Shown: positions 26,796 to 62,746 of the stretch, one piece after another
Layout of the letters: each line of letters starts with the position of its first letter
Numbering within the stretch: position 1 is the first letter of the stretch
Assembly (NCBI GenBank): GCA_024231855.1
Contig: JAAEQD010000159.1
Location: 1 to 64,000, forward strand
From: Candidatus Zixiibacteriota bacterium
GTDB taxonomy: Bacteria > Zixibacteria > MSB-5A5 > UBA10806 > 4484-95
Reading direction: 5' to 3'
Length of the DNA stretch: 64,000 nt
Position numbers and translations under genes: made by a program
Notes under the pieces: model-generated
The model's database searches: none
What the model was told of the DNA's origin: nothing
What the model saw: only the letters and a program-made list of their open reading frames with translations

Positions 26796-29700
26796 TCAAT
26801 CGTCATTGGCACCTATGGGTATCACCTTTGCCGTTACCGGTATCGACGCGCAATTCGGCCAGCCGACGGGCGCTTCTGCTGGCAAATCATCTGGTGTTGG
26901 CCAGGCCGGTTCGTAATCGATACAGTAAACAATATCGGTTAGACCTCTGAAATAGGTAACCAGCTTGGTTACATCGCTACCGATTACCAGGCAGTCGCCG
27001 TTGGCGTCCGCTGAGCACCAGAAATCACCAAGTAAACAAGCCGGGCTTGCCTCCAGGCCTCGGAAATAGTTCACCAGGTAAGTTACATCGCCGCCAATAA
27101 CCGATGGTGGCCAGGCGCCGTTGTACATATTGGCGTCGCCGGGAAGGTATTCATAATCCGATTGTGATGGTACGAAAAATACCTGGCTGAAAAATACCGT
27201 AAGCGGATAACCTCGAATGCCGAGCGTATCGCTTGCCGATGAGAGCCCATATGTCGAATTTATACCGGCGGCCAAACATGATACCGTGTCGCCGATTATA
27301 TTGGTGTCATCAACGGTGTTTACTACGAATTCCAATAATAATGTCGGCGTTTCGAAATGAAGCCAGGGATTTGGCGAAATCGCCTGGCCGTTAAACGATT
27401 GGCTTGACCAACCATAAGGATTAGGTGGTGATCCCTCGGGACCTAAGAATTCCGCGGTATCCCATTCACTGAGCGGATAATATAACTGCCCCTCGGTAAC
27501 TCCCAATAAACCGGTAATATATTGATCATCGGTTCCCAGGCATAGATGCAGATTACCCAGATGCGCGTTTTCGGGAGTTTGAATAAAAGCACCGATGTTC
27601 AACCTGCTGTCCGGAGAAGCGACTAACGCGGTACCGTCTGGAAGGCCGAACCAAAACGTTACCCAGGTATAGCTGTCACTGACCACTAGTGATGTATCAT
27701 TGCTGTTATTCATATCACCCGAAAGAAGAGAATATGCAACCAGGTCGTAAGTGGCGTCCACATCCGGCATGAATGTTTCGCCAAATTCTACCGTATCGAC
27801 ACCGCCGGCCGGCATATCGATTATTGTTATAGTGTCTTCAATTTCAACTAAAGGCGATCCCGATTTATAAACTTCGAAAACAACATCGAATGTTTGACTG
27901 TAAGATCCGTAGTTTCTCACTTCGGCCATCAGGGGATAGGATGATCCGGTTACCATCGAATCCGGCGGGTTGATTACACCCGATATGCCAACATCGGTAA
28001 TCGGCGTGGTCGCCACGATGAAAGCGCAGGGGATGTCAACATCGGGACTGTCGGGATCGTTAGTTTCGAGGTTAATATTGCCCGAGTAATTCCCTTCATC
28101 CAGCATAGAGGCATCAAACGTGATTGTAGCATCTGAGCTTGTATAGGGATCTATTACCCCGGATAGGGGAGACGCGGTCAGCCAATCGGTGAATATCCCG
28201 ATAGCCAGGTTGTCATGCATATAGGACGCGTTATATACGACCTGTAAGCCATCGGTCGCGTCGCTGTTTTCTATTCCGATAGTACATTCATCCAACCGTC
28301 CCGGCCCCATCTCCAGGTACTGAAACTTTATCTTGGCCGGGGCTCTCAATATTATCTGGAAGGTGAAAATCCCCTCCTGCCGCCAATCCGGAACATGATC
28401 CCAGGTTATTATAGCTGAATCCGTGTTATTGGTGTAAAAATATCCGGTACCGCCGTTTTCAAGATTCATATCATCGAAAAAGACGGCCAGCAAATCATTG
28501 GGCGCCTCGGGATCGGGTATCATTGGGTTGCCAAACTCAACCGAGGTGCTATTTGTAAACGATGCCCAGCCGTTTGTGCAGACATTTATCGCGTTGACAT
28601 TATTTCCATAAAACAGGAAATCGAATCCAAGCGGAAGCGGGCCCGAGTTGCCGTCGTCAATATCCAACCCAAAATCGATCGGCGTGCCAATTGATGATAT
28701 ATCAATCCAATTAAACGCGGGTCCTCCCGGTTCATCCGAATCTATCCAGGAATGACCGTAATTATCAGGGCCTCCCTGACCGGTGATGACCGGCGGATAA
28801 TATGGTTCATTAACTTTTGCCGCTTTACCGATGTCGGTTATCCGGTAGCCGATAGGCTCAAGATTTTTACTTTCGGATATATTAATCCGCGAAAGAACAT
28901 CATCAATCTCGGTCCAGAGCGTGTAGTAAAGCGGGCCGCCGCCATTGTTAGTGATAGTTAGATCACGCGATTCAATGTTGCCGGGCTGGGTTGCCACATT
29001 AAATAACGTAGGATTATAAGCCAAGTCCGCCGGTGGCCAGGGCGTGAGTTCGAAATTCAGCGAAACGGTATCATCAATTTCGACAAAGATAGATTGCTCT
29101 TGTGAGAAATATCCAAAAAGAGATGCTCGCAATGTATAAGTCGTATCAGCGGGAGCCCCAAGTAAATAATAGCCCTGGCTATTTGCCTGAACAGATATCA
29201 TCGAACCAACCACTTCAACCGTTGCCGCCAGAGGATCTGAAGTCGTGGCATCGGTAACATATCCATCAACATAGCCGAAATCAGTCATAGCCATAATAAC
29301 GGCCTCATAGGCGTCAATCATACCCCAACCATAAGAATTGTCCTCGCCGGCGGGGCCGAGATCATAAGCGGTGTCATATATGATCTGCTTTATCATCTCC
29401 ACGCTGATATTGGGATTTGCCTGGCGCATAAGAGCGACCACGCCGTTGACATGTGGCGAGGCCATCGAGGTTCCGCTCATTGATGTGTAGCCGCCGCCTG
29501 GATACGCCGATCGAATGTTTACGCCGGGAGCGGCAATATCCGGCTTGATTGCGGCGGTTTGATCCGGTGTGCAGTAAGTAGGTCCGGTCGAGGAGAAAGA
29601 AGCAAGCGGCCAGCCGGCCGTATAAGCATCGACAGCAGCTACGGCACAGGTACGATAATCATCAGTCGCCCTATCGCCGGGGCGGCGCAAGCCGGATGAT

Positions 29701-30764
29701 CCTTCATTGCCCGCCGAAAACAGAATTACGGTTCCGGCAGCTTCGCAGGCATCAAGATAACTCCAGAAAAGCGTGTCGCAGGGCGGATACCCATGACTCG
29801 TCGTTACGCCCCAAGAGTTCGAACAAACGGCGGGAACATCCCAATTTGTAAACGGATTACCATCGGGATCAACCATCCATTGAAACGATAGAATGGCATC
29901 GGCCACGGTACCCGGAATGCCGCCACCTCTATCGATTGGCGCGGATGCTATCCAAAGCGCGCCCGGCGCTACGCCGACCGTATCACCCGTGGTGGGTGAA
30001 GCGCCGCATACGCTGCCCATAGTATGTGTTCCATGGCCGCCGTCATCATATGGAAAATCATTCTGGCCCAAATACGGATCGTACCAGGCCCATTCAGGAT
30101 GACCGGCATATCTTGGATCGGCGACACCGGCCCACCGGTCGGCAAGCGCGGGATGGTCTCCCTCCACGCCGGTATCCATGTTTGCCACCAGCACGCCGCT
30201 GCCATCTATACCCAGCGCCCATACCTCGGGCGCCCGAATTGCCGTTAAGCCTATTTCAACTGATGTTATAGTACCCGGTTCGCTTTCTTTTATCTCTACC
30301 GGTTCAATTAATTCCGTTTCATAATTGAAATATACCCTGGCTACATCATTACGTTCAGCTAACTCCTCGATCACGGATTTTGGAGCGTCAATTCGGATTG
30401 CGTTACTTATCCAGAAAGCCTCATATTCGATAATTTTGCCATCTCTTTTTAAATCCGATAGTGACGCGATAATAATACCCTGGGTGGTTGATGCGATATT
30501 TTGCAGCGATGTAACTACAACTTCATGACGTTTTCGAAGAGTGACATTCTGACTGGTCATGTCGCGGGAGATAGCATCCAGATCGACTTGATCAGACATA
30601 AATACGATAACGGAAACGATTTGATCGGCTGATTTCGATTCCAGAATTTCGCGTAGTCCGATATCGATATCGCCCGCCCGAGCGGTAATTGTCCCGCCGG
30701 CGAGCAGGAAAACCAATACAAATAAATAGCCCAATTCTGATTTGATAAAACTTCCGAGTTTCAT
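26796..30764 (-). CDS. Secreted S8 (subtilisin-like) peptidase with beta-sandwich modules and C-terminal dockerin-like module
   Basis: VLVANMDTGVEGDHPALADRW, DDGGHGTHTMGSVCG, SMSGTSMASPHVNGVVALMRQ; C-terminal GDANMYNGAWPPSVIGGDVTYLVNYFRG...ADANGDCLVIGSDVTKLVTYFRG. Confidence 0.92.
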   Translation of the reverse strand: MKLGSFIKSELGYLFVLVFLLAGGTITARAGDIDIGLREILESKSADQIVSVIVFMSDQVDLDAISRDMTSQNVTLRKRHEVVVTSLQNIASTTQGIIIASLSDLKRDGKIIEYEAFWISNAIRIDAPKSVIEELAERNDVARVYFNYETELIEPVEIKESEPGTITSVEIGLTAIRAPEVWALGIDGSGVLVANMDTGVEGDHPALADRWAGVADPRYAGHPEWAWYDPYLGQNDFPYDDGGHGTHTMGSVCGASPTTGDTVGVAPGALWIASAPIDRGGGIPGTVADAILSFQWMVDPDGNPFTNWDVPAVCSNSWGVTTSHGYPPCDTLFWSYLDACEAAGTVILFSAGNEGSSGLRRPGDRATDDYRTCAVAAVDAYTAGWPLASFSSTGPTYCTPDQTAAIKPDIAAPGVNIRSAYPGGGYTSMSGTSMASPHVNGVVALMRQANPNISVEMIKQIIYDTAYDLGPAGEDNSYGWGMIDAYEAVIMAMTDFGYVDGYVTDATTSDPLAATVEVVGSMISVQANSQGYYLLGAPADTTYTLRASLFGYFSQEQSIFVEIDDTVSLNFELTPWPPADLAYNPTLFNVATQPGNIESRDLTITNNGGGPLYYTLWTEIDDVLSRINISESKNLEPIGYRITDIGKAAKVNEPYYPPVITGQGGPDNYGHSWIDSDEPGGPAFNWIDISSIGTPIDFGLDIDDGNSGPLPLGFDFLFYGNNVNAINVCTNGWASFTNSTSVEFGNPMIPDPEAPNDLLAVFFDDMNLENGGTGYFYTNNTDSAIITWDHVPDWRQEGIFTFQIILRAPAKIKFQYLEMGPGRLDECTIGIENSDATDGLQVVYNASYMHDNLAIGIFTDWLTASPLSGVIDPYTSSDATITFDASMLDEGNYSGNINLETNDPDSPDVDIPCAFIVATTPITDVGISGVINPPDSMVTGSSYPLMAEVRNYGSYSQTFDVVFEVYKSGSPLVEIEDTITIIDMPAGGVDTVEFGETFMPDVDATYDLVAYSLLSGDMNNSNDTSLVVSDSYTWVTFWFGLPDGTALVASPDSRLNIGAFIQTPENAHLGNLHLCLGTDDQYITGLLGVTEGQLYYPLSEWDTAEFLGPEGSPPNPYGWSSQSFNGQAISPNPWLHFETPTLLLEFVVNTVDDTNIIGDTVSCLAAGINSTYGLSSASDTLGIRGYPLTVFFSQVFFVPSQSDYEYLPGDANMYNGAWPPSVIGGDVTYLVNYFRGLEASPACLLGDFWCSADANGDCLVIGSDVTKLVTYFRGLTDIVYCIDYEPAWPTPDDLPAEAPVGWPNCASIPVTAKVIPIGANDD

Positions 30765-31884: not shown

Positions 31885-31903
31885 TATCTGCTCCTTACAT
31901 TAG

Positions 31904-37545: not shown

Positions 37546-40500
37546 TTATTCTTCACAATTCGGCCAGCCAGATGGCGCTTCAGCCGGTAAATCATCTGGT
37601 GTTGGCCAGGCTGGCGCGTAATCCGGGCAATATTGAATACTCGTCATACTCCTAAAGTAAGTTACCAATTTAGTCACATCGCTACCAATGACACTGCAGT
37701 CGCCATTGGCATCCGCTGAACACCAAAAACTGTCAAGCAGACAGGGCGGGCTTGTTTCCATACCGCGGAAATAGTTCACCAGATAGGTCACATCACCCCC
37801 GATTACCATTGGTGGCCAGGCGCCATTGGCCATGTTAGCGTCGCCGGGGAGGTAATCTGAGCCGATATTATAAGCAATGACGATATTAAAATAGCACGTA
37901 TCCGCTAAACCGGCGTCATCCGTCGCGATAACCTCAACCATCGTGGTGTCAAGCGCGAACCATGAGCCTGAAGCCGGATCTGATTCTATAGTTACTCCCG
38001 GGCAATTTTCAATAGCATCCGGCGAAAATTCTACATAAGCTCCTGTTAGACTGGAGTCAATCTCAACCGTCATATCCGCCGGACAGATAGCTACCGGTGG
38101 TTCAGTATCATTCACCGATACACTAAAATCGCAGGTATCGGCGTTGCCGGCGGCATCCGTGGCGATAACCTCAACTTGAGATAATCCTATGGGAAAGAAA
38201 CTGCCGGAGGGGGGATTTGCCGCGACATTTACATCAGGGCAATTATCGGATGGATTCAAAGCGAACGTTACCGTCGCCCCGCATTGGCCCGGATCATTGG
38301 AAGCTACTATATCGGCCGGACAACCCGGTACGGGCAATTCGATATCATTTACCGTTACATTGAAATAACAGGTATCGGTATTCCCATAATCATCGGTGGC
38401 TATAACCTCAACCGGATTTACTCCAACGGCGAAGAGACTGCCCGATGGAGGATTGGATGAAATCGTAACACTCGAGCAGTTATCGGTAGCGTCGGCCGTG
38501 AATGCCACCACCGCGCCACACTCGCCCGGATCGTTGTTAACCGTTATATCGGAAGGGCACGTCACATCGGGAGGTACGATATCTATAACGTTAACATTGA
38601 AAAAGCAAGTATCGGCATTGCCGGCGATATCGCTGGTTATCACCTCGACAGGTGTTGTCCCCATATCAAAGAAGCTTCCAGATGGCGGAGTCGCGTTAAT
38701 ATAAACTACTGAACAGTTGTCGGATGGATCGAAAGTGAAAGATACGATTGCCCCGCATTGATCTGGATCATTAGCTACTTCAATGTTGGCTGGACAGCCA
38801 GGATCCGGGATTTCAATATCGTTTACTGTTACATTAAAATATGAAGTGTCGGTATTGCCAGAGGAATCATTCGCATAAATAGTTACCTGTGTCGAACCGA
38901 CCGGGAAATGACTCCCGGATGGAGGATCTGCGACTATACCGGCTAACGCGCAATTATCTGTTGCGCTTATCGAGTAATTTACAACTGCCTCGCATTGGCC
39001 CGGAGCATTATCCACAGTGATATCGGCGGGATAATCGGTAACCGGTGGTTCATTGTCGATAACCGTTACATTGAAATAACAGGTATCGACATTAGAGAAC
39101 GCGTCTCGTATGGCAACCTCAACCGGAGTCGTACCTAAATCAAAATAACTTCCGGACGGCGGATTAATGTACATCATGACCGAAGAGCAGTTATCATTAA
39201 ATCCGGGTTCGAAAGAAACAATTGCCCCGCATTGGCCAGGATCATTACTTACTATTGTATCTTCCTGACAAATAGCAATCGGTGGTTCGTTATCATAAAC
39301 CGAAACAAAGAAATAACAGCTATCGGTATTGCCGGAAACATCAGTAGCGATAACATTTATCATTGTTGATCCGGGTCCAAAGAAAGATCCCGATGGTACA
39401 CTGACGTCGATAGAAACATCAGAGCAGTTGTCGGTTGCATCCAGTTCAAACGTGACGACCGCGCCGCACAATCCCGGATCGTTATCCACCGCTATATCAT
39501 CGGGACATACAATAATCGGGGCTTCACCCTCATTAACAGTTACGTTGAAATAGCAAGTGTCGGCATTGCCCGAGTTATCTATGGCTATAACTTCAACCGG
39601 TGTTGTCCCAATGCCGAGGAAACTTCCGGATGGTGGATTGGTCGTTACAGAGTTCACGCCGCAGTTGTCGGTGGCGCCGGGGCTGAATGTAACTGTCGCG
39701 CCGCATTCACCCGGGTCGTTTTCTACCATTATATCTGAAGGACATGTGGCTACCGGGGCTTCACCCTCATTAACAGTTACGTTGAAATAGCAAGTGTCGG
39801 CATTGCCCGAGTTATCTATGGCTATAACCTCAACCGGCGTAGTCCCAATGCCAAAGAAACTTCCGGATGGCGGATTGGCCGTTACAGAGTTCACGCCGCA
39901 GTTGTCGGTGGCGCCGGGGCTGAATGTAACTGTCGCGCCGCATTCACCCGGATCATTATCAACCGTTATATCCAGGGGACATGTGGCTATCTGTGTTTCT
40001 GCCTCGTTGACAGTTGCGTTGTAATAGCATGTGTTGGCAGTCCCCGTGTTGTTGATGGCTATAACCTCAACCGGCGTAGTCCCAATGCCGAAGAAACTCC
40101 CGGATGGCGGATTGGCCGTTACTGAACTCACGCCGCAGTTGTCGGTAGCGCCGGGGCTGAATGTTACTATCGCGCCGCATTCACCCGGATCATTATCTAC
40201 CATTATATCCAGGGGACATGTGGCCACCGGGGGAGTATTATCGTTTACAGTAACCGTAGCCTGGCAAGTATCTGCCAATCCTGAATCATCGGTTACGATC
40301 AAGCTGACAATTGTTTGGCCGGCAGAGTAGGGACTTGCTGGAATCTGTAGCAGCGTTATAGAGTCACCATCTGGATCATAAGAGCCGTTGTCTACCGAGA
40401 TATCAGCCTGGCAACTCGCGTTCGCGTCAGTAGTGATATCAATACAAAGGGCGACTGGAGGATTATTTCCAGTCGATGAACTTAAATTGACGGAACTTAC

Positions 40501-48900: not shown

Positions 48901-49326
48901 TGGCTTGGGCGTAAACGAAATATGAGTTAATCCATTCATAAGATTTGAAGAATGATAATCAAGCCCCGGTTTTAATTTGGCTATCGCATCGCCATCCTTA
49001 TAATATAATATATCTATGTCCGTTAAAAGCCTTTCGATATCTTGATGATCGATTTGAAAAAGGTAATACTCACTATCTTCATCTCGCTCATCTATGTTTA
49101 TTATGGAATAGCCTTCATCCGACATATTCTTCGTTCCAGCAGGTGTCGTGCCAACAAGAAGGCCGCTTTTCATAACCGCGTAAATATCGACTTTTTCTAC
49201 CGAATCCAACTCATTCAATCCCGGAGATTCAATATCGATGACTATCAGATCCTCAGCTTGGGTAAAAGAGAAAAATATAAAAAACGTGCAAATCGAAGCC
49301 ATAATCTTTATTGAACTGGTGTACAT
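45982..49326 (-). CDS. Secreted M28-family peptidase with carboxypeptidase-regulatory-like domains and C-terminal dockerin-like module
   Basis: IIIAHIDATSENPDFSAPGAEDNGSGSAGVLEAARIL, VLVSGEEQGLYGSEAYA; GTIAGMATDNDTAPIQDVLVEL...; dockerin-like C-terminus. Confidence 0.92.
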   Translation of the reverse strand: MYTSSIKIMASICTFFIFFSFTQAEDLIVIDIESPGLNELDSVEKVDIYAVMKSGLLVGTTPAGTKNMSDEGYSIINIDERDEDSEYYLFQIDHQDIERLLTDIDILYYKDGDAIAKLKPGLDYHSSNLMNGLTHISFTPKPKPRQQPAIPSYSLLTDVEIGDIVSQVSQTEYTAYLQRLQDFVTRYSYSDSCRAAELWAINTFSDLGLETELFSYDYSGNTWYNPIGRKVGLAYPDSIYIIIAHIDATSENPDFSAPGAEDNGSGSAGVLEAARILSQYDFNCTIEFVLVSGEEQGLYGSEAYAEYCFLNNKNIGGVFNFDMIAYEGGYGWDINIYSDQNFPEEVALADLLAQLTDQYSTAYSIRVNTAGPTYGSDHYYFSYYGFPAPFAIDAQMWDAPDWYPWYHTTGDVITNIDLDYATEVVKGAAATLATVAGLWSPPLLQFNYPDGLPELIDPSGGTSFRVEVSAESSDPQTGTGVLYYSTGDTYFSLPMEVVSPNVYDAVFPALECGKDIAFYISVETTDSALVTDPRDAPGISFSAFSASEFTSLYEDDFETDQGWSVSGDATDGHWDRGVPSGLGERGDPPADHDGSGQCYLTDNVYGNSDVDGGTTYLISPTFDLSEGNALFNYALWYTNNSGDDPNNDSFVVWVSNNNGSSWTPVETFGPTTSPGWTEHSFLVDDFIAPTSLVKVRFEASDLNSGSVVEAGIDALSITNIVCDSVATGTIAGMATDNDTAPIQDVLVELIDGVDIIGSDNTDSGGNYSFGGVTPGIYDLDFSQVGYYDVIESDVEVSSGESTIVDMTLHRLGTYGGVVDDYYGTPVEDVHVTAISQVATTRINDDSGPILLDVDPVDNIFTNAAGEFTLTLMPGDYVATFEKDAWTTFTSAQFTIFDDTDMENQDVVFRSPGSLSGVIDDGSVPVEGVHVAVEDDLALIGEDYSDIAGAYSIGEIYDGDYTVTFSHVDYQTVVLTAFHINDGPSGTIQDQTLSELAGYPYLTGDVNMYNGNWPPTVIGGDVTYLVNFFRGVEASVPCLITGFWASADANGDCNVIGSDVTKLVSYFRGMTTLSYCDDYEPLWPTPDDLPVEAPDGWPNCDVAPLTARVIPSVTD

Positions 49327-50250
49327 TTTCTACTCCTTATCCGTGAAAAATGACAAATGACTTGAAAAACTCTATTTTCTTAGGAAACCGATCTGGTTTC
49401 ATGTTCAATTTTACAGTCCATAAAGAGAGGGCATAAATCCGAATTCTTGAATTTATTAGCTCTTTAGGAAATATAGGACGAATTTTTAGCCAGTCAAGGG
49501 GTATATTTCCCCGGAATTATCCCTAATCCACCCAATGTGGCTTATTATCGCGTTTTGACAATTCAAACATCAAGTGTGATTGTAGCCGTTATCTAACAAT
49601 ATCTTATGGGATCAACTCGTTTTCTAATAAGACCTTTGTACTCTATGATCTTTAATAAAATCGAATATTATAATTGACGAATCTGACTAAAATGTTATAT
49701 TTAATACGTGCCTTCATTGTGGAAGGGTTGTACTGACCAGTTTTGTGTATTGAGGAAAATGAAGAATTGATAGTAAGACATCCATGTTTATTAAGTAACA
49801 GGAAAATGGAAATTCTTCAATAAGTGTGTTTTTATAACTGTAATATCAAATAACAATCGGCTGATGTCAGGTTGACTTGATCGACTTAAACACCGCGCCG
49901 GGCGATGATGGAAGAAAATAGATAATTGAGTGAACGTATAAACAGAGAACAACAAGGGTCGCACTGCAAAGGAGGTTTACGGGTATATATATTGTCGCTA
50001 TATAAAGTAACACTTCGATTAGTAGTACTTATTTAGTCTTTGCCGCGCTGGAATTGATATGGCGTGGCCCCGTTATATGAAACAAACTTCATAGCCGCTC
50101 TGTCGACAAGAGTCCGTAATTAATCGGCAGGTATCGGCTTCTATAGATTCACTTTTAAATACAGGGTAAAAATAGTTAAGCCTTTTGGTGGTAGCAATGA
50201 AGCTGAACCTGAGGTGAAAGAGAATTTATCAACTTAAACGAGGAGTGTTC

Positions 50251-53200
50251 ATGCGTAAGGTTTTAGTACTCGCACTGCTTATCCTGATTACGGGAGCCTT
50301 ACAGGCAAGCGAGGAAAATCAATTCATCTACAAGTCGGATTATATCCACTTGAAAAACTCCACGGTTACCCACTCTAACGATGTTTCGACAGCTTTGAAT
50401 TTTCAACTGGGTGGAATCGAATTAACCGAACCGGATATAGCCCGTAGCGGCTATGTCAAACCCGAACCAATGGCGGAAAATCCCGAGATGTTCGGCCGCA
50501 CACATGAAGAGGGTATGCCGGATCTGCCGTTATATTCAGACGCTATCATAATTCCTGATCAGGCCGGCGTCAGGGTAAATATCATTTCGGTTGAATACGA
50601 AACAATTCAAAATGTAGATATTGTACCTACTCAGCCCTTTAAAATCGAAGGTAACGAAGATCCGCTTCCGTTTGCCAAAAACAACGAAGCTTATTCGCGG
50701 GATGAATTCTATCCCGGCGATATCGTATCTGTCGGCGAGCCGATGATTATGAGGGATTTTCGTTTCATTCAGACTGTCGTTTATCCCACGCAGTACAATC
50801 CCGTTACGAAAGAGCTTCGGGTTTATACTCATGTTGATTATGAACTAATCTACGAGGGTATCGACACCAGAAATGTTAAAGTAAGAAACAATAACCAGAT
50901 TTCCGAAGCTTTCGTGCCCATGTACAGAAGCGTTTTCAATAATGCCGAAGACGTTTTGACTGATTTTGACGTAATCAAGGGTGGTTTTCTGATTATAACT
51001 GAAGACAGTTACGGTTTTCCGACTCTTTTAGAGACTCTTGCTACCTGGAAACATCAAAAAGGTTATTATACGCATATTGCTCCCTCGACTGAGATAACAC
51101 CCTCGGGAGCGCCATCATATGCTCAGGTAAAAAGCTATATTCAGGATGCCTACGATACCTGGGAAACTCCGCCGGATTATGTGCTTATCGTCGGGGATGA
51201 GAACATGGATATCCCCAATTATCCATACTCCGGTTACACCTCAGATCATCAATATACTACCGTTGATGGTTCTGATTATATTTCCGATGTATTAATCGCC
51301 CGAATGGCGGCCGATGACGCAAATGAACTTCTGACGGCGATGGAAAAAGTTTTAAGATATGAACAGGATCCGGATATGACGGATCCCGATTATTATACTC
51401 GCGGTTTAGGCGTAGCCGGTAACTGCTGTGGTACGCCAACTCCAACAACACCTCGTATAACCAATCTCTGGGTTCGCCACCAGGCGTTGTTAAACGGTTA
51501 TAGCCATGTCGATACGGTATTTAGCTGGGGTGATGTACCTCCAAATGATTATCTTATTGATGATGCTATCCAGGACGGGGTATCATATGTTTCTTATCGC
51601 GGCTGGGCCGGATCAAGCGGCTGGTACTATCCTTCCTGGGGAACAGGCGATATTAGCGCGCTCAACAATGGTTTCAAGATGGGGATTATGGCCTCGGTTG
51701 TTTGCGGTACAGGTAATTTTGGCGCCGATGATTGCCTTGGCGAAGCCTGGACTCTTTATGGTTCTACCACCGTTCCCGATGGCGGTCCCAGTTTTTATGG
51801 CTGCACCGATGGGAGCACTCATACGGCTTGGAACAATCCCAACATGATCGGCTTTTTCTGGGCGTTATTTGAACAGGATATGTACCATTTCTCACAATTA
51901 GTATTCATGGGCAAGCAAAGGGTTTTTGAGTGTTTTCCCAGGTACACAAGTTCCGGCAACTATGTAAATAAGTATTTCAATACTTATAATGCCCTCGGCG
52001 ATCCATCGCTTGAAGTCAGAACAGATACGCCGCAAACTATGGCGGCCAGTTATCCGTCCAGTATTCCCGTCGGCACCAACAATCTGACTGTCAGCGTTAC
52101 CAGCGGAGGTTTCCCTCTTGAAGGAGCCTATGTGAACCTGGTTAAAGGTCATGACGCGAGCGAAGAAATATTCGTGGGCGATTGGACTGACGCGGGCGGA
52201 AGCGTCACTTTGAATTTCACCAATACCGTGGCAGACACTATTTATGTAACTGTCACAGCCCGGGATTATATTCCGCATAGAGGACATTGCTTATCCACTT
52301 CGGCGACCGTAACCGTCGGTATCGAAAGCCATCAGCTTGATGACGACGATTTTGCCGGCTCCAACGGTAATTCCGATGGCCGGGCGAATCCCAATGAAAT
52401 TTTGGGCTTGGATATTAATCTGAGGAATTTCGGTGACATGGCGCCTGCTACCGGGATTACTGTAACCTTATCATCTTCCGATTCGAGAATCAATTTCGCG
52501 AATCCGTTGATTGCCTATCCTGATCTACAACCGGGCGGTTCAGCCTTACCCGATGAGCAGTTTATAGTCGAGTTGACGGATAATATACCCCACGGCGAGC
52601 ATATTTTAATCGACGCTTTAATCGAGTCGAATGAGGGCAGTTGGAATGCCATGATCGACCTTGAGGTTAAATCAATTAAACCGATATCTTTCGTGTCCAG
52701 TTATCCTGGACAAGCCGACGATCGCCTCGATCCGGGCGATCTGGTAACGGATTTCGTTGTAAGCTTCTCGAATGCCGGACAACTCAACGGTCAGCAAATC
52801 ACCGGTGTTTTAAGCTGTGAGGATGACTATATAACTATTCTCAATGGCACTTCATTGTTTGGCGATATCGATATAGGGCAAAGCGGCGACAACAGCTTTA
52901 ATCCATTTATGGTATCGGTGAGTGAAGATGCTAATAACGGCCGAAACGTAAACTTCACCGTGAGCTTCACATCTAATATGTTCGATATGAGAAGCGTCTC
53001 ATTTGAGAAGACTTTTTCGATCGTCCTTGGCACGAGAGAAGTGTTCGATCCGGTTGGACCAGATAATTACGGTTATTACATGTACGATGATACTGATCTG
53101 GGTTATGACGCGGCGCCTACATATGGCTGGATTGAGATCAATCCAAACCTCGGTGGATCGGGTACCAGAGTTACCATGCCAGATGATGACGATTCATCGA

Positions 53201-56200
53201 CGCCTATTACCTTACCGTTTGATTTCGTTTATTACGGCGAAGCGCATCGTGAAATAATCGTGTCGACGAATGGTTTTGCCGCTCTGGATACGATCCCGTA
53301 CGATGTTGGCGGTAACTACTGGCATACTTGGGATAACTGGCCGATTCCTGATCCCGGTAATGCCAGAGGCCAAATTTCACCGTTCTGGGATGACATAAAA
53401 TCCACCGGCAGCACCAATGGAATTTACACCAAGAACGATGTCGGCGGTGGCAAGTTTATAATCGAGTGGAGTGGATTTACCCATTCGGTTACCGGATCGC
53501 CGCAAACGTTCCAGATGATTATCTGCAATCCCGCGTACTTTCCGACCCCGACCGGTGATTGCGAAATAATCTTCCAGTACAATGTAATTAACAATGACGA
53601 TGATGACACAAATCCCAATGGCCCGGCGACTTATTCATCGGTGGGTTTCGAGAACTGGGATCAGAATGATGGTCTGCAGTATGAGTACGATAATACTTAT
53701 CATGGTAACGCCGCGGTACTGCAAAGCGGCCGCGCGATAAAGATCACGACCGCGACCGGTACGGCCCCTCCGCCGGATATGGCATACAGCCCCAGCGTGT
53801 TCAACCTTGCCTGCGATCCAGGCGCTGAAGACGAAGATGATTTAACTATCGAGAATAACGGAGAAGGATTATTGTCCTATAGCATTTCGGCTGAAGTGAT
53901 AGACGGCGGAGTGTTGAGATCTGTCCCCGTAAAAGTCTCTTCCAGATCGCAAATCGATTTGACGCCTGAGAGTAATATCAAAACCGAAGACTTCTCCGGC
54001 CCATACAATCCGCCGGTAATTCTGGATTCAGGCGGCCCGGATGCTTTTGGCTACACCTGGAGAGATTCAAATGAACCGGGTGGGCCCGTTTACAGTTGGA
54101 AAGATATTTCCTCGATTGGCACGGAGATAACGGGCATGGGCGATGAGTCCAGCCAGGGTCCATTTCCGATTGGTTTTAGTTTCAATTTCTACGGCACTGA
54201 TTTCACTACATTCAGGGCGACTTCAAACGGTTTTGTTTCGTTTACCAGCACTAATTATCCTTATGATAATGGACCGATTCCAACCGCTGCCGAGCCTAAC
54301 AATATGTTGGCGGTTTATTGGGATGACTTGAATTTCAATTCTGGCGGGAATGCCTACTACTACAATAACGGTTCCGATAGCTGTATAATTTCCTATGAAG
54401 GTGTTCCGCATTATAGTGCTGAAGGTTCATTCACTTTCCAGATAATTCTGCTCGCTTCAGGTAAAATCGTCTACCAATACCAGGAGGCGACCGGAGAGGA
54501 TGTAAACCAGGAAACTATCGGTATCGAAAACGGCGATGGCACGGATGGCTTGATGGTTTGCTATGACCAGGCTTATGTGGTGTCCGGCCTGGCAATCGAA
54601 TTCGCCGCTTTCCCAATATGGCTATCGACAGACCCGGCTTCCAATATCGTTGATCCCTACAGCACCGAGATAGTTACGGTTACGGCCGATGCCGCTGATT
54701 TGGATGAGGGACTTTACGAAGGAATTCTTCATATGAGTTCAAATGATCTGGATTATCCATCCGTGGAAATCCCGGTTCATTTTACTGTCTCCAGTTCCAC
54801 TCTTCAAAGCCCGAGTTTGATTTCGCCGCCTAATGGAGATGAATCTATTGATCTTACACCGACTCTCACTTGGTCGGATGTGTCAGAAGCGACGGTGTAT
54901 CATCTTCAGGTTGATGATAACAGCAATTTCAGTTCACCGGTTTACGAGAATGCTTCCCTTACGGGTCAATCTTATACATTCCCGTCGAATTTAGCTACGG
55001 GCCAATATTATTGGCATGTTAGATGCAGCGATGGAGAACAGTGGTCCGTTTATTCCTCCACCTGGAATTTCACTCTCGCCACGCTTCAGTCTCCAACATT
55101 GGTTTCGCCGCCAAATGATGATATTTCCGATGATCTAACGCCAACCCTCACTTGGGCGGAAGTGACGGAAGCAACGATATATCAACTTCAGGTTGACGAT
55201 AACAGCGACTTCAGCTCGCCTGTTTACGATAATGCTTCCCTTGCGGGTGAATCTTATACATTCCCATCCGCGTTAGGCACTGGTCAATACTATTGGCATG
55301 TGAGATGCAGCGATGGAGAGCAATGGTCAAACTATTCATCTTCCTGGAATTTCATCCTTTCAATACTTGAAGAACCTGTTACGGAATATCCCGGCGATGG
55401 TGAATCCATATTTGATTCCGAACCTACATTTGTCTGGCATCAAGCAACTGGCGCGATACGTTACCATATTCAAATTGATGACGCGTCATCCTTCACGTCA
55501 CCGATCTACAATAACTCGAACGTCACCGACACTACCTACCTGGTTTCATCGCCTTTATCCTCAGGGACTTTCTATTGGCATATTCGAGCGTTTGATGGCA
55601 TAGTCTGGTCCGATTATACAGCCACCTGGGATTTCTCTGCCTCCGTTCCCGAGGTGCCGCAACTGACATCGCCGCCTAACGGTAATGAGAGCTCTACTGA
55701 TCCGCCGACATTCGCCTGGCAGACCGCCGACGGGGCGACCTCTTATACTATCCAGGTTGACAATAATAGCGATTTCAGTTCGCCGATAATCGATATTGGC
55801 GGATTATCGACAAATTCATTTACCCCGGCCGCGCCTCTGGGCGAAGATACATATTACTGGCATATTTCGGCGGAAGGTGATTTTGGCAACTCCAGTTTCT
55901 CCGCCAGTTTTTCCTTTACGATCAACTATGGTTCTACCTCTCTAGAATATTTGCCCGGCGATGTAAATATGGCTAATGGCGCCTGGCCGCCAATGGTTAT
56001 AGGTGGTGATGTAACGTTCCTGGTAAACTATTTCCGAGGTATGCCGTCGAGCGAACCATGTCCTCTCAGCGGGTTCTGGTGCTCGTCAGATGCTAACGGT
56101 GACTGTTTGGTAATCGGTAGTGATGTTACCAAGCTCGTAAACTATTTCCGTGGTACAACTGGCTTAAGTTGGTGCGGAGATTATGAACCTCAGTGGCATG

Positions 56201-56298
56201 AACCCGGTGAATTACCGCCCGATGCTCCCGCAGGTTGGCCAAATTGCGAAACCGTAACGACTGGAAAAGATATTACCGGTGGAATGCTTGACAAATAA
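50251..56298 (+). CDS. Secreted C25 (gingipain)-like protein with FN3-like repeats and C-terminal dockerin-like module
   Basis: FLIITEDSYGFPTLLETLATWKHQKGYYTHIAPS...YVLIVGDENMDIPNYP...ISDVLIARMAADDANELLTAMEKVLRYEQDP...ASVVCGTGNFGADDCLGEAW...NALGDPSLEVRT. ATG at 50251 has an aggag RBS. Confidence 0.8.
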   Translation: MRKVLVLALLILITGALQASEENQFIYKSDYIHLKNSTVTHSNDVSTALNFQLGGIELTEPDIARSGYVKPEPMAENPEMFGRTHEEGMPDLPLYSDAIIIPDQAGVRVNIISVEYETIQNVDIVPTQPFKIEGNEDPLPFAKNNEAYSRDEFYPGDIVSVGEPMIMRDFRFIQTVVYPTQYNPVTKELRVYTHVDYELIYEGIDTRNVKVRNNNQISEAFVPMYRSVFNNAEDVLTDFDVIKGGFLIITEDSYGFPTLLETLATWKHQKGYYTHIAPSTEITPSGAPSYAQVKSYIQDAYDTWETPPDYVLIVGDENMDIPNYPYSGYTSDHQYTTVDGSDYISDVLIARMAADDANELLTAMEKVLRYEQDPDMTDPDYYTRGLGVAGNCCGTPTPTTPRITNLWVRHQALLNGYSHVDTVFSWGDVPPNDYLIDDAIQDGVSYVSYRGWAGSSGWYYPSWGTGDISALNNGFKMGIMASVVCGTGNFGADDCLGEAWTLYGSTTVPDGGPSFYGCTDGSTHTAWNNPNMIGFFWALFEQDMYHFSQLVFMGKQRVFECFPRYTSSGNYVNKYFNTYNALGDPSLEVRTDTPQTMAASYPSSIPVGTNNLTVSVTSGGFPLEGAYVNLVKGHDASEEIFVGDWTDAGGSVTLNFTNTVADTIYVTVTARDYIPHRGHCLSTSATVTVGIESHQLDDDDFAGSNGNSDGRANPNEILGLDINLRNFGDMAPATGITVTLSSSDSRINFANPLIAYPDLQPGGSALPDEQFIVELTDNIPHGEHILIDALIESNEGSWNAMIDLEVKSIKPISFVSSYPGQADDRLDPGDLVTDFVVSFSNAGQLNGQQITGVLSCEDDYITILNGTSLFGDIDIGQSGDNSFNPFMVSVSEDANNGRNVNFTVSFTSNMFDMRSVSFEKTFSIVLGTREVFDPVGPDNYGYYMYDDTDLGYDAAPTYGWIEINPNLGGSGTRVTMPDDDDSSTPITLPFDFVYYGEAHREIIVSTNGFAALDTIPYDVGGNYWHTWDNWPIPDPGNARGQISPFWDDIKSTGSTNGIYTKNDVGGGKFIIEWSGFTHSVTGSPQTFQMIICNPAYFPTPTGDCEIIFQYNVINNDDDDTNPNGPATYSSVGFENWDQNDGLQYEYDNTYHGNAAVLQSGRAIKITTATGTAPPPDMAYSPSVFNLACDPGAEDEDDLTIENNGEGLLSYSISAEVIDGGVLRSVPVKVSSRSQIDLTPESNIKTEDFSGPYNPPVILDSGGPDAFGYTWRDSNEPGGPVYSWKDISSIGTEITGMGDESSQGPFPIGFSFNFYGTDFTTFRATSNGFVSFTSTNYPYDNGPIPTAAEPNNMLAVYWDDLNFNSGGNAYYYNNGSDSCIISYEGVPHYSAEGSFTFQIILLASGKIVYQYQEATGEDVNQETIGIENGDGTDGLMVCYDQAYVVSGLAIEFAAFPIWLSTDPASNIVDPYSTEIVTVTADAADLDEGLYEGILHMSSNDLDYPSVEIPVHFTVSSSTLQSPSLISPPNGDESIDLTPTLTWSDVSEATVYHLQVDDNSNFSSPVYENASLTGQSYTFPSNLATGQYYWHVRCSDGEQWSVYSSTWNFTLATLQSPTLVSPPNDDISDDLTPTLTWAEVTEATIYQLQVDDNSDFSSPVYDNASLAGESYTFPSALGTGQYYWHVRCSDGEQWSNYSSSWNFILSILEEPVTEYPGDGESIFDSEPTFVWHQATGAIRYHIQIDDASSFTSPIYNNSNVTDTTYLVSSPLSSGTFYWHIRAFDGIVWSDYTATWDFSASVPEVPQLTSPPNGNESSTDPPTFAWQTADGATSYTIQVDNNSDFSSPIIDIGGLSTNSFTPAAPLGEDTYYWHISAEGDFGNSSFSASFSFTINYGSTSLEYLPGDVNMANGAWPPMVIGGDVTFLVNYFRGMPSSEPCPLSGFWCSSDANGDCLVIGSDVTKLVNYFRGTTGLSWCGDYEPQWHEPGELPPDAPAGWPNCETVTTGKDITGGMLDK
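54800..55925 (+). repeat. Four tandem FN3-like domain-coding repeats
   Basis: LQSPSLISPPNGDESIDLTPTLTWSDVSEATVYHLQVDDNSNFSSPVYENASL...GQYYWHVRCSDGEQWSxYSSxWNF recurs; first two copies near-identical. Confidence 0.85.
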
Positions 56299-56355: not shown

Positions 56356-56463
56356 AGGGATAGTTCGGAATACTATTACCGCGGGCTTTAGCAGCTTGTA
56401 TATTCAATGTAAATGCAAAGAATAAAACAATTGAATAAAAATATTTCTATAAATTAGATATGG

Positions 56464-56500: not shown

Positions 56501-56565
56501 ATAACTCTTTTTATTATGCGGTTGCATAATATATTGAGCCCTTATTATGCCCAATATTACTACTA

Positions 56566-59346
56566 TCATTCACAATTCGGCCATCCCGGCGGAGCTTCTT
56601 CGGGTAGATCATCAGGTACCAGCCAGGCGGGTAGGTAATCGGCGCAATGGCTTAGCGTCGTCATACCTCTGAAATAAGTGACCAGTTTGGTAACATCGCT
56701 GCCAATGACAACGCAATCGCCGTTGGCATCGGCTGAGCACCAAAAGCCATCGAGCGGACACACAGGGGAAGAGGAAAGACCGCGGAACCATGAGACAAGA
56801 TATGTCACATCACCGCCAATAACCATCGGCGGCCAGGCGCCATTATACATATTTACGTCGCCCGGAAGATATTCTAAAGCATCTGATCCAACAGTCACTA
56901 TAAAACTGCAGGTATCGCTGTTGCCTGAGCTATCCTGACCAACGCAGTTCACCGATGTTTGACCAATCGGGAAAAACGATCCTGATGGGGGATCGCATTC
57001 GACAATTGAATTGGGGCAATTATCAGAAACCGAGGCTTCAAATTCACATATCGCGCCGCCTTGGCCCGGTTCGCTCAATAAAGTTGTGTCATCGGGGCAA
57101 ATAACATCGGGATTCTCGTTGTCATTCACGGTGATATCGAAATGACAGCTATAAGTGTTTTCCGATCCATCGATAGCTTCTATATCGACTTGAGTGATTC
57201 CTATCGCGAACATCGAACCGGGCGGCGGGTCCGCCGTAACAATCAAATCGGGGCAGTTATCGTCTCCTATATAGCTATAAGTGACGATCGCGCCGCATTC
57301 TCCCGGATCGTTATCTACGATAATATTATTAGGGCATGGCACAAACGGCGACGTTGTATCCGATACCGTAACGATTGCCTGACATGTATCGGCCAACTCG
57401 CCATCATCGGTAACTATCAGTGAAACCGAAGTTTGACCTAATGGGTAAGGCCCATCGGGTTCCTGCTCTATTGTGATTGGATCATCATCGGGATCATACG
57501 AGCCATTATCGATATCGGCAAATGCCTGACACTCGTAATCCGCGTATATGGTTATATTCTGGCATAGCGCGATCGGCGGACCGTTAATCGGCCCATCAAA
57601 CATCTCATGAGAGCAGATAATCGAGAAGTATTGGGTTTCGGCCAGAGTTCCTTCATGTGAAACCACTATCCGGTAATTTCCCACTGAGGCCGGATCGACG
57701 TAAATCTGCTCGGCATTATCCCGAAAGTTATCGCCGGTCGCAGCCGGGTTGGCGGGATTGGCCGGATCGAGGATATAGGGTTGATGGACTATTAAGTCAT
57801 TCAAATCTTCCAACCTTAAATCCAGGTCGTTCACCAGCATGAGATCGGGCGGGTTAAGCGATGGTGTCGGCGGGATCCCCGGCGGATCTGTCCAGGCCAG
57901 AGTCAGTATTATAGGCTCGGTACCATCGCTGAAAATATAATAATCATCATTTGAGCCGTTTACCAGAGAATCTTCGATAATCCGGCCGGGCCGCAATGAA
58001 TCATCCTGAATCAATTGCGTCGCTTTTAGAGTATTGGCAAGCCCCCAGCCGAATTCGTAATCGGGGCCTGTTGCCGAGCCGGCTTCATCGGCGGTTTGAA
58101 TAAGAATCCCTTTCATTGTAGACGATAGTGGTGTCGAATTATTATGGGTGGCCTCATAGTGCCGCACGAGCAAATTTAATGATCCCGCCAAATTGGGGGT
58201 GCTCATCGAGGTACCGCTTAAACTCTGGTAAGCGTCATTACTATCATCCATACAGGAGTACAGGCCTATCCCATTGGCGACCAGATCGGGTTTTATTCTG
58301 CCGTCATCGGTAGGTCCCCAGCCGCTGAACGAACTTATAACGACATCACCCGGTCCGGTATAACCGCCGGGGATATCTTCGACCGCTCCAACAGTGATAA
58401 TATTCTTGGCGGTGCCATTCCACGACACGCAATCATAACCATCAAGCCCGCCATCGGGGTCGCGCTCATCATAGCTCCAGACCCATCCCGAATCATATAC
58501 ATAATGACCTTCGCCGGATTCAGGTCCATAATCGTTACGGTCATTTCCCGCGGATTTACAAATCGTGTAATAGGGCGCGTTTGCCGCGATATCATCCCAG
58601 GCTTGAGCGGCGTAATTATAGTACCCGAAACCGTAGTCTTCTGTCGTGCTTATGGCAATGTCGCCATACCAATACCAATCACCATTCCAACGCCAGCCAG
58701 TAATATAACCATAGGAGTGGCTGGAAACGTTCATGCCCGAGGCCGCTGCCGAAGCCATTTCGGAATCGTCGCTATTCCAGTCATAGGCTGCCAGGTTCCC
58801 CTGATAAGACATACCTTTCGCCGAGTCTATAAGGCCGCTTGATATCAAGGTTCCCGCTACATGCGTGGAATGATAATGAGTTCCTCCCGGGCTGTCCATC
58901 TGGATCGCTCTCCCGGCAAACTCTTGATGGGTTGCCAAGACGGCTCCGGCATCCCATACACAGAGCTCTCCCAGATCGGTATCCGAGCCATCCAGAGAAA
59001 ATCCGCCGCTGCCCCCGGGCCATACATCATCGGTGCTGATCGTCGAAGCCGCGTTTATATTCTCAATGGCGTAGTAGAAGGGTTTGCCATTATAACCGAT
59101 AAACATAAGCTGGATATCGCTGTTTCGGTTTAATCGTAGTTGAGGCGAATCAGTGCTACTCAAGAGATCATAATAAAGTTGGGGACGTTGAGCCTGCAAT
59201 CGATCTTCAAATAGACTGCTCATTTGCCCTAATGCCGTATTATCAGTTTGGGGCTGGGCATTAGCCAAACATGCGTAACTTAAAATCGCTAAGGAAATTG
59301 TCAGAAGAAGAATCATTCTTTTTGTTGATTGCTTACGCTGAATCAT
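56566..59346 (-). CDS. Secreted S8-type peptidase with HYR domains and C-terminal dockerin-like module (paralog of 37546-42225)
   Basis: LCVWDAGAVLATHQEF, THYHSTHVAGTLI, LSGTSMSTPNLAGSLNLLVRHYE; two HYR units; dockerin-like C-terminus. Confidence 0.92.
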   Translation of the reverse strand: MIQRKQSTKRMILLLTISLAILSYACLANAQPQTDNTALGQMSSLFEDRLQAQRPQLYYDLLSSTDSPQLRLNRNSDIQLMFIGYNGKPFYYAIENINAASTISTDDVWPGGSGGFSLDGSDTDLGELCVWDAGAVLATHQEFAGRAIQMDSPGGTHYHSTHVAGTLISSGLIDSAKGMSYQGNLAAYDWNSDDSEMASAAASGMNVSSHSYGYITGWRWNGDWYWYGDIAISTTEDYGFGYYNYAAQAWDDIAANAPYYTICKSAGNDRNDYGPESGEGHYVYDSGWVWSYDERDPDGGLDGYDCVSWNGTAKNIITVGAVEDIPGGYTGPGDVVISSFSGWGPTDDGRIKPDLVANGIGLYSCMDDSNDAYQSLSGTSMSTPNLAGSLNLLVRHYEATHNNSTPLSSTMKGILIQTADEAGSATGPDYEFGWGLANTLKATQLIQDDSLRPGRIIEDSLVNGSNDDYYIFSDGTEPIILTLAWTDPPGIPPTPSLNPPDLMLVNDLDLRLEDLNDLIVHQPYILDPANPANPAATGDNFRDNAEQIYVDPASVGNYRIVVSHEGTLAETQYFSIICSHEMFDGPINGPPIALCQNITIYADYECQAFADIDNGSYDPDDDPITIEQEPDGPYPLGQTSVSLIVTDDGELADTCQAIVTVSDTTSPFVPCPNNIIVDNDPGECGAIVTYSYIGDDNCPDLIVTADPPPGSMFAIGITQVDIEAIDGSENTYSCHFDITVNDNENPDVICPDDTTLLSEPGQGGAICEFEASVSDNCPNSIVECDPPSGSFFPIGQTSVNCVGQDSSGNSDTCSFIVTVGSDALEYLPGDVNMYNGAWPPMVIGGDVTYLVSWFRGLSSSPVCPLDGFWCSADANGDCVVIGSDVTKLVTYFRGMTTLSHCADYLPAWLVPDDLPEEAPPGWPNCE

Positions 59347-59704: not shown

Positions 59705-62700
59705 ATGATTTTCAAGACTAATACTCTGATAGCGATTATCTTTATCATTTGCGGTTCCATTTCAATGGCGAGCATAATTAACGTGCCTGCGGATTACTCA
59801 ACGATCCAGGCGGGCATAAATGTGAGCACGGATAACGACACAGTCCTGGTTCAGCCTGGCATGTATGTTGAAAACATTATATTTAATGGACACAATGCCA
59901 TATTAGCCTCACTATTTCTAACTACACGAGACTCATCATATATTAGTTCTACAATAATTGATGGTGATTCTTCGGGTTCGGTAATCAGATGCCGAAATGG
60001 TGAGGATCCAAGATGTACAATAATCGGATTTACTATTCAAAATGGATTCGCGGAGAAAGGTGGAGGAATCTATTGTTCATACACAAATCCCACGATTATG
60101 AATAACATAATTAGAAATAATACTGCCACTGGCACTAATTCAGACGGCGGCGGTATATGCTCTTATCGGAGCTCAGGCCAGCTAATTCAAGGCAATATCA
60201 TTACGGGGAATAGTGTAATTTACAGTTCAGAAGGTTTGGGCAATGGTGGCGGAATCTATTGCAAGGACGCGGTGATTAGAGACAATATTATTACTAATAA
60301 CCAATGCACAGGATTTGGTGGCGGTTTTTATTGCCAAAACTCCATAATACTAAATAATGTAATTAGTGAGAATTCCGCCTATCGTGGCGGTGGAATGCAT
60401 TGTTCGGGAAATTCCGAAAACATATCATATAATACTATATCGGATAACATAGCCACAGATTTTGGTGGGGGGATTCTTTTATATAATCAATCAAGTGTAT
60501 CGATAGATAATAACATTATCAATAATAATTCCGCCAATGAGGGAGCCGGCATTTTTTGCTCTCAGTCCTACCCGGTTATTACTAATAACACGATTGCGGA
60601 TAATATCGGACAAACCGGTAACGCGATCTATGTTTATTTTTATTCAACGCCGGAAATAACGAATACGATCGTTTGGAGTTACGGCGATCAATTATCTGAA
60701 TTGTATATTGATAATACTTCATCGGCGATAGTAAGATATTGTGATATTCAAGGCGGCTGGACTGGCATCGGTAATATTGATACTGATCCAATGTTTAGAG
60801 ATCCCGAGAACACTGATTATCATTTAATGTCCCTTGATTGTGGCGATCCCGCTAATTCTTTATGCATTGACGCGGGCTATCCCGATATAGCCGACGACTC
60901 AATGGACTGCGATTGGGGCCAGGGAACCGAAATTAGTGATATGGGAGCGTATGGCGGCGGCCGGGTAATCCCAAATGTGCCCCGGACTATTACTATACCT
61001 ACGGATTATCCCACGATTCAGGATGGTATAAACGCAAGCCGAGATCTGGATACAGTATTGGTGTTGCCAGGGATTTATTATGAGAACATTAATTTCTTTG
61101 GACGCGGTATTGTATTAAGCTCTTTATTCTTGACCACCGATGATACATCATATGTTTCCTCAACCATCATCGACGGTGATCTCTCCGGATCGGTTATTAC
61201 TTTAGATAGCGAAGAGGACAGCAATACTGTCATTTGTGGGTTCACAATACAGCATGGATATTTTATTCACGGTGGTGGGATTCTGAGCGCTAATCATGCT
61301 CAGCCCAGGATTTGCCACAATCATATTAAAGATAACACCGCCTACCATGAATATGGGGGAGCAGGCGGAGGTATCTATTGTCGGTTTCATTATTCAACCA
61401 TTGCCTTTAATACCATAACCAATAATAAAGCCACCGTAGGTGGTGGAATCTATACCACAAGCGCTGAGCCTTTAATCCTCAATAACACAATCAGCAATAA
61501 CGAGGGTACAGAATCGGGAGGGGGAATTGAAGTATGGCATTATGAGCCGGAAATCGTTAATACGATCGTATGGGGCAATAGCGCTCCTGAAGGCTCCTCG
61601 ATTTATACTAACAGCACACCACAGGTCCGCTTCAGCGACATCGAGGGCGGATGGAGCGGTGAGGGCAATATCGATTGCGATCCGTTGTTTTGCGGAGCCG
61701 GTATCGGTAATTATTTTCTTGAGGGAATTTCGTGTTGCGTAGGCGCGGGCGAAGAAGGTGTTGATATCGGTTCAATTGGGGTGGGTTGTGAATTTCTCGG
61801 CTCGATAAAGGGAATCGTAATAGATCAGTACGATGATTTCGCGCAGGCGGTCAGCGTTTTCGCCGAAGGAACATCTATAATCGACAGTACAGATACCGGC
61901 GGCGAATATAGGCTTGAAGGTCTCGCTGCCGGTTACTATGATATTTCGTTCACTCATCCCGATTATCGAGATACATTAGTAATGAATTTTGAAGCAATTT
62001 CCGGAGATACCGTGACATTGAATGTCGTGATAGTCGAATTACCCGGAGTAATTTCAGGATTTGTGACGAATTGCTCAACCGCCCCTGTTGAAAGCGTCTA
62101 TGTTGAGATTAATGATGTTTCCACATTGATAGTTGAAAATGCTAAGACCATCTTCGAAGATGGCAGCAAACTTGCCAGCGAGAATAAAGCCGAAAACAAT
62201 TCCTTTTTACTACTGATAGATTCGATTTACACCGATGAATTCGGATATTATGAATTCACGATACCTGCCGGGACCTATGATATCTTATTATCGCATGAGG
62301 AATATAACCAAACAATTTTAACCGATGTTGAAGCAACGCCGGCCGACACCATATATTTACTTCCACAATTGACATCATATGGTTATCAATACCTTCCCGG
62401 AGACGCGAATATGTTTCTGGGGAGCTGGGTCCCTCAAGTTGGTACCGAGGACGTCACCTACCTCGTGGGATATTTTCGAGGCTTGCAATCCAATTGTATC
62501 ATAGGAGAGTTATACCGCTCGGCAGATGTGAACGGTGATTGCCATGTTATTGGCAGCGACCTCACTCGCATGGTTAATTATTTCCGCGGTTTGGTTTCTA
62601 TGTCGTACTGTCCGGATTATCCCCCTGCCTGGCTGACTTCCGATGATTGCCTGGATGAATGCCCGGAAGATCCGCCACCTGGTTGGCCTGGATGCGATAC

Positions 62701-62746
62701 TTTAACAACTGGAAGTGGTACTCAAAGTATAATAGTTGAATATTGA
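59705..62746 (+). CDS. Secreted parallel beta-helix protein with C-terminal dockerin-like module
   Basis: IxVPxDYxTIQxGIN...DTVLVxPGxYxENIxFxG present twice; GGGIYC..N..I.NN repeats; C-terminal GDANMFLGSWVPQVGTEDVTYLVGYFRG...ADVNGDCHVIGSDLTRMVNYFRG. Confidence 0.88.
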   Translation: MIFKTNTLIAIIFIICGSISMASIINVPADYSTIQAGINVSTDNDTVLVQPGMYVENIIFNGHNAILASLFLTTRDSSYISSTIIDGDSSGSVIRCRNGEDPRCTIIGFTIQNGFAEKGGGIYCSYTNPTIMNNIIRNNTATGTNSDGGGICSYRSSGQLIQGNIITGNSVIYSSEGLGNGGGIYCKDAVIRDNIITNNQCTGFGGGFYCQNSIILNNVISENSAYRGGGMHCSGNSENISYNTISDNIATDFGGGILLYNQSSVSIDNNIINNNSANEGAGIFCSQSYPVITNNTIADNIGQTGNAIYVYFYSTPEITNTIVWSYGDQLSELYIDNTSSAIVRYCDIQGGWTGIGNIDTDPMFRDPENTDYHLMSLDCGDPANSLCIDAGYPDIADDSMDCDWGQGTEISDMGAYGGGRVIPNVPRTITIPTDYPTIQDGINASRDLDTVLVLPGIYYENINFFGRGIVLSSLFLTTDDTSYVSSTIIDGDLSGSVITLDSEEDSNTVICGFTIQHGYFIHGGGILSANHAQPRICHNHIKDNTAYHEYGGAGGGIYCRFHYSTIAFNTITNNKATVGGGIYTTSAEPLILNNTISNNEGTESGGGIEVWHYEPEIVNTIVWGNSAPEGSSIYTNSTPQVRFSDIEGGWSGEGNIDCDPLFCGAGIGNYFLEGISCCVGAGEEGVDIGSIGVGCEFLGSIKGIVIDQYDDFAQAVSVFAEGTSIIDSTDTGGEYRLEGLAAGYYDISFTHPDYRDTLVMNFEAISGDTVTLNVVIVELPGVISGFVTNCSTAPVESVYVEINDVSTLIVENAKTIFEDGSKLASENKAENNSFLLLIDSIYTDEFGYYEFTIPAGTYDILLSHEEYNQTILTDVEATPADTIYLLPQLTSYGYQYLPGDANMFLGSWVPQVGTEDVTYLVGYFRGLQSNCIIGELYRSADVNGDCHVIGSDLTRMVNYFRGLVSMSYCPDYPPAWLTSDDCLDECPEDPPPGWPGCDTLTTGSGTQSIIVEY

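Follow-up and report, generated by a model that had tools for sequence, protein, structure and literature searches.

In Candidatus Stygibacter (Cloacimonadota), dockerins are found on secreted S8 and C25 peptidases, together with a scaffoldin-like protein that carries tandem cohesins and a C-terminal surface-attachment domain (PMC8542988). A hypothetical cellulosome-like peptidase complex of freshwater Planctomycetes, the Planctosome, is composed of anchors and adaptors, and one of the adaptors has a HYR domain, a cohesin and a dockerin (PMC6461901). Large non-cellulosomal sets of dockerins and cohesins have also been reported in ANME archaea, including proteins that combine a dockerin with up to five cohesins (PMC9012536), and another study describes a scaffoldin that contains an S8-like domain and ends in a cohesin-dockerin pair (PMC11557425). 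In our literature search, no paper was found that names Zixibacteria together with dockerin. Here, we analyzed a window of 64,000 nucleotides (contig C159) from a Candidatus Zixiibacteriota assembly of 5.37 Mb in 415 contigs, with a completeness of 96.5% and an estimated contamination of 8.5%. We consider it quite probable that this organism possesses a non-cellulosomal cohesin-dockerin system, which would network secreted proteins by fastening them to one another at or close to the cell surface.

Six proteins encoded in the window have in common a C-terminal module of about 99 residues, with the consensus LPGD(A/V)NM..G.WPP.VIGGDVTYLVNYFRG ... C ... SADANGDC.VIGSDVTKLVTYFRG ... C.DYEPAWPTPDDLP.EAP.GWPNC and the conserved repeat DVTxLVxYFRG. 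The preliminary description had placed such modules at the ends of S8, M28, C25-like and beta-helix proteins; all six are present at essentially the same coordinates, at the C-terminus or 1-17 residues short of it, and the Pfam assignments of the hosts agree (S8 in three, and M28, C25 with propeptide and right-handed beta-helix in one each). On the minus strand, the ORF at 26796..30764 encodes a signal peptide-like start, an S8 protease, a CarboxypepD_reg domain, a region that we take to be CARDB-like, a domain of predicted cohesin fold (27168..27686, minus strand) and, 7 residues further on, the module (26850..27146), which is followed by a 17-aa tail. Two other S8 proteases on this strand carry HYR domains along with the module, namely ten in the ORF at 37546..42225 (module at 37555..37851, the copy that was modelled with AlphaFold2) and two in the ORF at 56566..59346 (module matched by the profile at 56572..56868). 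The M28 peptidase, also on the minus strand (45982..49326), contains a MAM/choice-of-anchor-J-like domain and CarboxypepD_reg repeats ahead of its profile-matched module (46030..46326). On the plus strand, the C25 (gingipain-type) peptidase with its C25 propeptide and Ig-like domains (50245..56298) has a profile-matched module at 55951..56247, and the right-handed beta-helix protein with CarboxypepD_reg domains (59705..62746) ends in the most divergent of the six copies (62393..62695). Pairwise identity among the six modules is 55-83% across catalytic classes. The modules had been called far more conserved than the catalytic parts, which holds for distant S8 proteases (0.31 and 0.33 for the catalytic domains versus 0.83 and 0.77 for the modules) and much less for the two close S8 paralogues (0.72 versus 0.78).

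Several other features of the window were recorded. A secreted protein of 613 aa (43229-45070, plus strand) has no Pfam match and contains a metzincin-type HExxHxxGxxH motif (THEAGHNYGLGHGD); at its C-terminus, a hydrophobic anchor rich in Trp, Leu and Ile takes the place of a dockerin or type IX secretion system (T9SS) tail. The ORF of 1273 aa at 3823-7644 (plus strand) is an unusual fusion of NUDIX, ARMT1-like and CofD in one chain. The gene row at 7911-19630 (plus strand), with a Fic protein, an SNF2-type helicase with a NO VEIN C-terminal domain, a DUF499 protein and what may be a DUF1156-type methylase, looks like a defence island. The genes at 20158-26554 (minus strand), which we take to be an ABC transporter cluster of the branched-chain amino acid type, are interrupted by a methyltransferase-like gene (23406-24173) together with the gene at 24189-25427.

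To find all carriers, a profile was built from the six window copies and run on the whole genome. The six copies themselves scored E-values of 1e-49 to 6e-59, far beyond chance, although they are the same sequences from which the profile was made. Scoring of 150 of the 227 candidates gave at least 136 matches at E ≤ 1e-10, and the genome stretches retrieved around matches contained at least 130 module copies above the threshold of 70 bits in 124 ORFs. A hydrophobic N-terminal stretch was present in 107 of the 114 carriers having a start, as judged by a crude hydrophobicity measure (not SignalP) at a cut-off of 2.0, compared with 97 of the 172 other, mechanically defined ORFs at a slightly stricter cut-off of 2.2. 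The module is C-terminal in most carriers and internal in some, with up to three copies per protein, and in a few carriers it lies directly behind the signal peptide (contigs C273, C402 and C14). Two of these loci (L140, C402 150617; L139, C273 8094-9010) show a signal peptide, the module and then further domains, and a similar arrangement occurs in the genome G113 (L043). The tails that follow the final Cys of the module fall into two classes, a short one of 1-3 residues (70 ORFs), ending mostly in E, and a long one of 12-25 residues (38 ORFs). Examples of such tails in the window are 56248-56295 and 26799-26849.

Protein identity among the module copies of this genome is 0.65, and their 4-fold synonymous sites differ at 0.62, compared with 0.69 at saturation. 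The nearly saturated sites, together with 65% protein identity, indicate that purifying selection, not recent copying, keeps the copies alike. Recent gene duplication or conversion was therefore rejected as the cause of their likeness.

By sequence, the module escapes the standard domain models: PF00404 (dockerin type I) gave no match in the six window proteins at E 0.1, nor in the isolated module at E 1, and neither NCBIfam nor the models of the T9SS type A sorting domain (PF18962, TIGR04183) matched it. The AlphaFold2 model (pLDDT 91.5) has helices at residues 22-32 and 60-70 and resembles solved dockerins of type I. In a Foldseek search of this model against PDB, the best 27 of 29 matches were all dockerin chains, with E-values of 0.06-2.8 (none ≤ 0.001), probabilities of 0.2-0.99 and target TM-scores up to 0.82; with VIA, every chain listed was a dockerin (Z up to 8.6, 72 residues, 2.2 A). 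When order relatives were added to the module profile, hmmsearch matched the solved dockerin 4fl4_A at E 4.9e-7, and other dockerin sequences also scored below 1e-3. The second loop (loop 2) has the canonical EF form of 12 residues, D-x-N-x-D-C-x-V-x-x-x-D, with D47, N49, D51, V54 and D58, and its D, N and C positions are 99-100% conserved in 130 copies. The insertion that had been noticed in the first loop is real and amounts to a net 5 residues (17 positions versus 12) in 120 of 122 parsed copies; with 17 residues, loop 1 departs from the 12-residue Ca loop, and its Ca site is uncertain, which counts against a docking function. Four Cys are invariant, and the Trp and Pro positions are nearly so, a combination that is unusual among dockerins. 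It seems probable that the module represents a divergent dockerin peculiar to this lineage, which docks onto a cohesin and has two F-hand helices, each behind a Ca-binding-type loop of which the first is long, and a Cys/Trp-rich C-terminal extension; it would presumably bind Ca.

The domain of about 170 aa (173 aa in the window) that adjoins the module N-terminally in the S8 protein at 26796-30764 is a candidate receptor. Pfam and NCBIfam returned no match to it, and PF00963 was absent at E 1 from 27168-27686 and from related proteins. Its AlphaFold2 model (pLDDT 88.2) gave 50 listed Foldseek matches, all of them cohesins or cohesin-containing chains (E 7e-7 to 9.5e-4), and 50 listed VIA matches, all of them cohesin entries, the best with Z 15.7 over 140 residues at 2.4 A. 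A PDB sequence search with the profiles of this family found no cohesin, and hhalign of its thin profile against the six Pfam cohesins of the same genome gave a probability of 3.8%; since no sequence search connected the family with known cohesins, its assignment is based on the predicted fold, a point that weighs against the docking interpretation. The search for cohesin-like partners envisaged in the preliminary description ended in a family invisible to Pfam. Iterated searches identified 47 copies in the retrieved ORFs, most of these copies in carriers, and 60 copies genome-wide, spread over about 44 ORFs. The Pfam cohesins, the more obvious partner, were rejected: only seven matches exist in the genome, four of them above cut-off, and these lie mostly in T9SS-tailed proteins or in proteins with other dockerins. 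The cohesin-fold domain is likely to be the partner of the module.

The architectures of these proteins are in line with such a role. The cohesin-fold domain and the module occur together in 22 ORFs, including six tandem genes on contig C208 that each encode a signal peptide, two cohesin-fold domains and a module. Nine ORFs combine the cohesin-fold domain with a T9SS tail and lack the module; the smallest of them, consisting of signal peptide, cohesin-fold domain and tail, are only 290 and 296 aa long, and small proteins of the same kind are found in two other genera (G113 and G112). No protein with more than two cohesin-fold domains was seen in the 415 contigs of this genome, which counts against the docking interpretation. 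The order relative G115 has a scaffoldin-like frame of 1559 aa in which five cohesin-fold domains stand in tandem and a dockerin forms the C-terminus. At L103:12180-13135 (contig C141), an ORF with the cohesin-fold domain is followed by one with the module, with a stop between them; this is either a split gene or a separate small cohesin protein. In most of the proteins with both domains, the cohesin-fold domain ends 4-8 residues ahead of the module. This spacing could also fit an X-module-like stabiliser, as X modules adjoin type II dockerins in similar fashion, and it counts against the assignment of the domain as receptor. The module could then be a dockerin whose partner is a Pfam cohesin or some other surface component, the neighbouring domain being such a stabiliser or an unrelated sandwich; the Pfam cohesin matches and the missing sequence similarity of the domain to known cohesins point the same way. 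We regard this alternative as unlikely, since T9SS-tailed proteins of at least three genera have the domain but no module, since it also forms a tandem of five, since its 60 copies stand against seven weak Pfam cohesins, and since its fold is nearest to true cohesins in all matches listed by both structure searches.

At least 150 T9SS tails (PF18962, TIGR04183) and the SprA translocon are encoded in the same genome. Module and T9SS tail coexist in a single carrier (L074:4530-8390, C208_52741), in which the module is internal; this chain also has M28-like and beta-helix-like regions and, as we read it, possibly a further cohesin-like stretch. The preliminary description had left open whether the module serves as a secretion, sorting or scaffold-docking signal. 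Docking is favoured by the dockerin fold and by a cohesin-fold family with anchor and adaptor architectures, whereas secretion or sorting is less likely in view of N-terminal signal-peptide-like starts, copies that are internal or follow the signal peptide, and T9SS tails that hardly overlap with the module. A C-terminal export or sorting signal, used in place of the type IX tail and read by a secretion or attachment machine, not by a cohesin, would account for the mostly C-terminal position of the module, its near exclusivity with T9SS tails and the two classes of tail length, of which the longer ends in K/R in 28 of 38 ORFs. Such a signal is nevertheless very unlikely: apart from the export signals that carriers appear to have at their N-termini, up to three modules may lie in one protein, and the predicted fold belongs to a module known for protein binding.

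Within the phylum, the cohesin-fold family was detected at E ≤ 1e-8 in nine of 132 genomes, all of one order, and best module-profile E-values below 1e-25 were confined to the same nine genomes, with at least 31 matches each; 49 other genomes of the phylum showed weaker dockerin matches to the module profile. As the nine genomes are one clade, their co-distribution represents one evolutionary event and not nine independent ones, which limits what it can add to the docking hypothesis. The inserted form of the module, at E ≤ 1e-25, is restricted to the genome under study and G113, which belongs to the same family and another genus. The rest of the order has the same double repeat with a loop 1 of 12 positions in nearly all relatives seen, and G112 contains one copy with the inserted loop (L045). 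A search for the exact module pattern in GTDB r220 contigs returned 35 pattern matches, of which 0 were confirmed. The estimated contamination of the assembly also counts against the proposed system, although the same module is present in a second genus (G113). Identity between the modules of this genome and those of other genera is 0.41-0.58, and most genomes show their own recognisable style. These styles bear on another explanation, that the module is a structural cap stabilised by Ca and possibly by disulphides and has no specific partner, for which the invariant Cys and the nearly invariant Trp and Pro positions could be cited. Genome-specific styles, near-saturated synonymous sites and the DVTxLVxYFRG repeat fit a shared binding partner better, and cohesin-fold domains are abundant in the genome; we therefore consider a mere cap highly improbable.

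In the cohesin-dockerin arrangement that we favour, exported proteins would dock via the module onto the cohesin-fold domains, of which the same genome has about 60. Surface anchoring would fall to proteins in which a cohesin-fold domain is joined to a T9SS tail, and those with both cohesin-fold domain and module, such as the product of the ORF at 26796-30764 and of the six C208 genes, would act as adaptors and enlarge the network. The putative clients are S8, C25 and M28 peptidases, beta-helix proteins and beta-propeller proteins, consistent with the Pfam domains of the carrier sets (peptidases, beta-helix and beta-propeller). A more far-reaching view is possible, though on balance doubtful: the whole order may display much of its secretome by a self-contained network, with anchors shown by T9SS, a new cohesin class, more than 100 tagged proteins and docking codes that diverged by genus, so that the proteins of each species fit no sockets but its own. 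If the proposed system is real, cohesins can escape sequence models entirely, and cohesin-dockerin systems are probably more widespread beyond plant-fibre degraders than is currently estimated. Dozens of surface proteins that lack annotation would become one system whose interaction can be tested directly, in a phylum that is represented here by metagenome assemblies only, and the secretome could be read by a simple rule, with T9SS tails on anchors and dockerins on clients. For a single genome, the set would rank among the larger dockerin collections known, and its new, possibly orthogonal docking pairs might be of use in protein engineering.

Compared with the type I cohesin-dockerin pairs of clostridial cellulosomes, the proposed system shares a predicted dockerin fold with two EF-type repeats and a predicted cohesin fold, as well as adaptor architectures that pair cohesin with dockerin and putative anchors that join a cohesin to a surface-attachment signal, according to the classes in PMC11557425. 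In contrast to the clostridial system, the module is missed by PF00404, has a loop 1 that is five residues longer and bears a Cys/Trp-rich C-terminal extension, and the cohesin is missed by PF00963. The putative clients here, which are proteases and proteins of the beta-helix and beta-propeller types, have no evident connection with cellulose. In each carrier set, the 25 Pfam families that occur most often include no glycoside hydrolase, and anchoring is proposed to occur via T9SS tails, not via SLH or sortase. The T9SS type A sorting domain (PF18962, TIGR04183) likewise tags the C-termini of many secreted proteins in this genome, but its sequence is unlike that of the module. The complex of Candidatus Stygibacter also has dockerins on secreted S8 and C25 peptidases, but it was found by standard annotation and has one scaffoldin of 3,755 aa with tandem cohesins (PMC8542988), whereas the cohesin-fold domains described here are scattered over dozens of ORFs. 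The Planctosome resembles the present system as a peptidase complex with anchor and adaptor proteins, both inferred, and differs from it in being likened to simple cellulosomes, in its lamin-tail domain anchor and in its other peptidase families (PMC6461901). The ANME system is similarly a large non-cellulosomal set, but it is archaeal, has other clients and was annotated via standard domain libraries (PMC9012536). What is new here is a cohesin class invisible to sequence models, a long first dockerin loop with a Cys/Trp-rich extension, and the scale.
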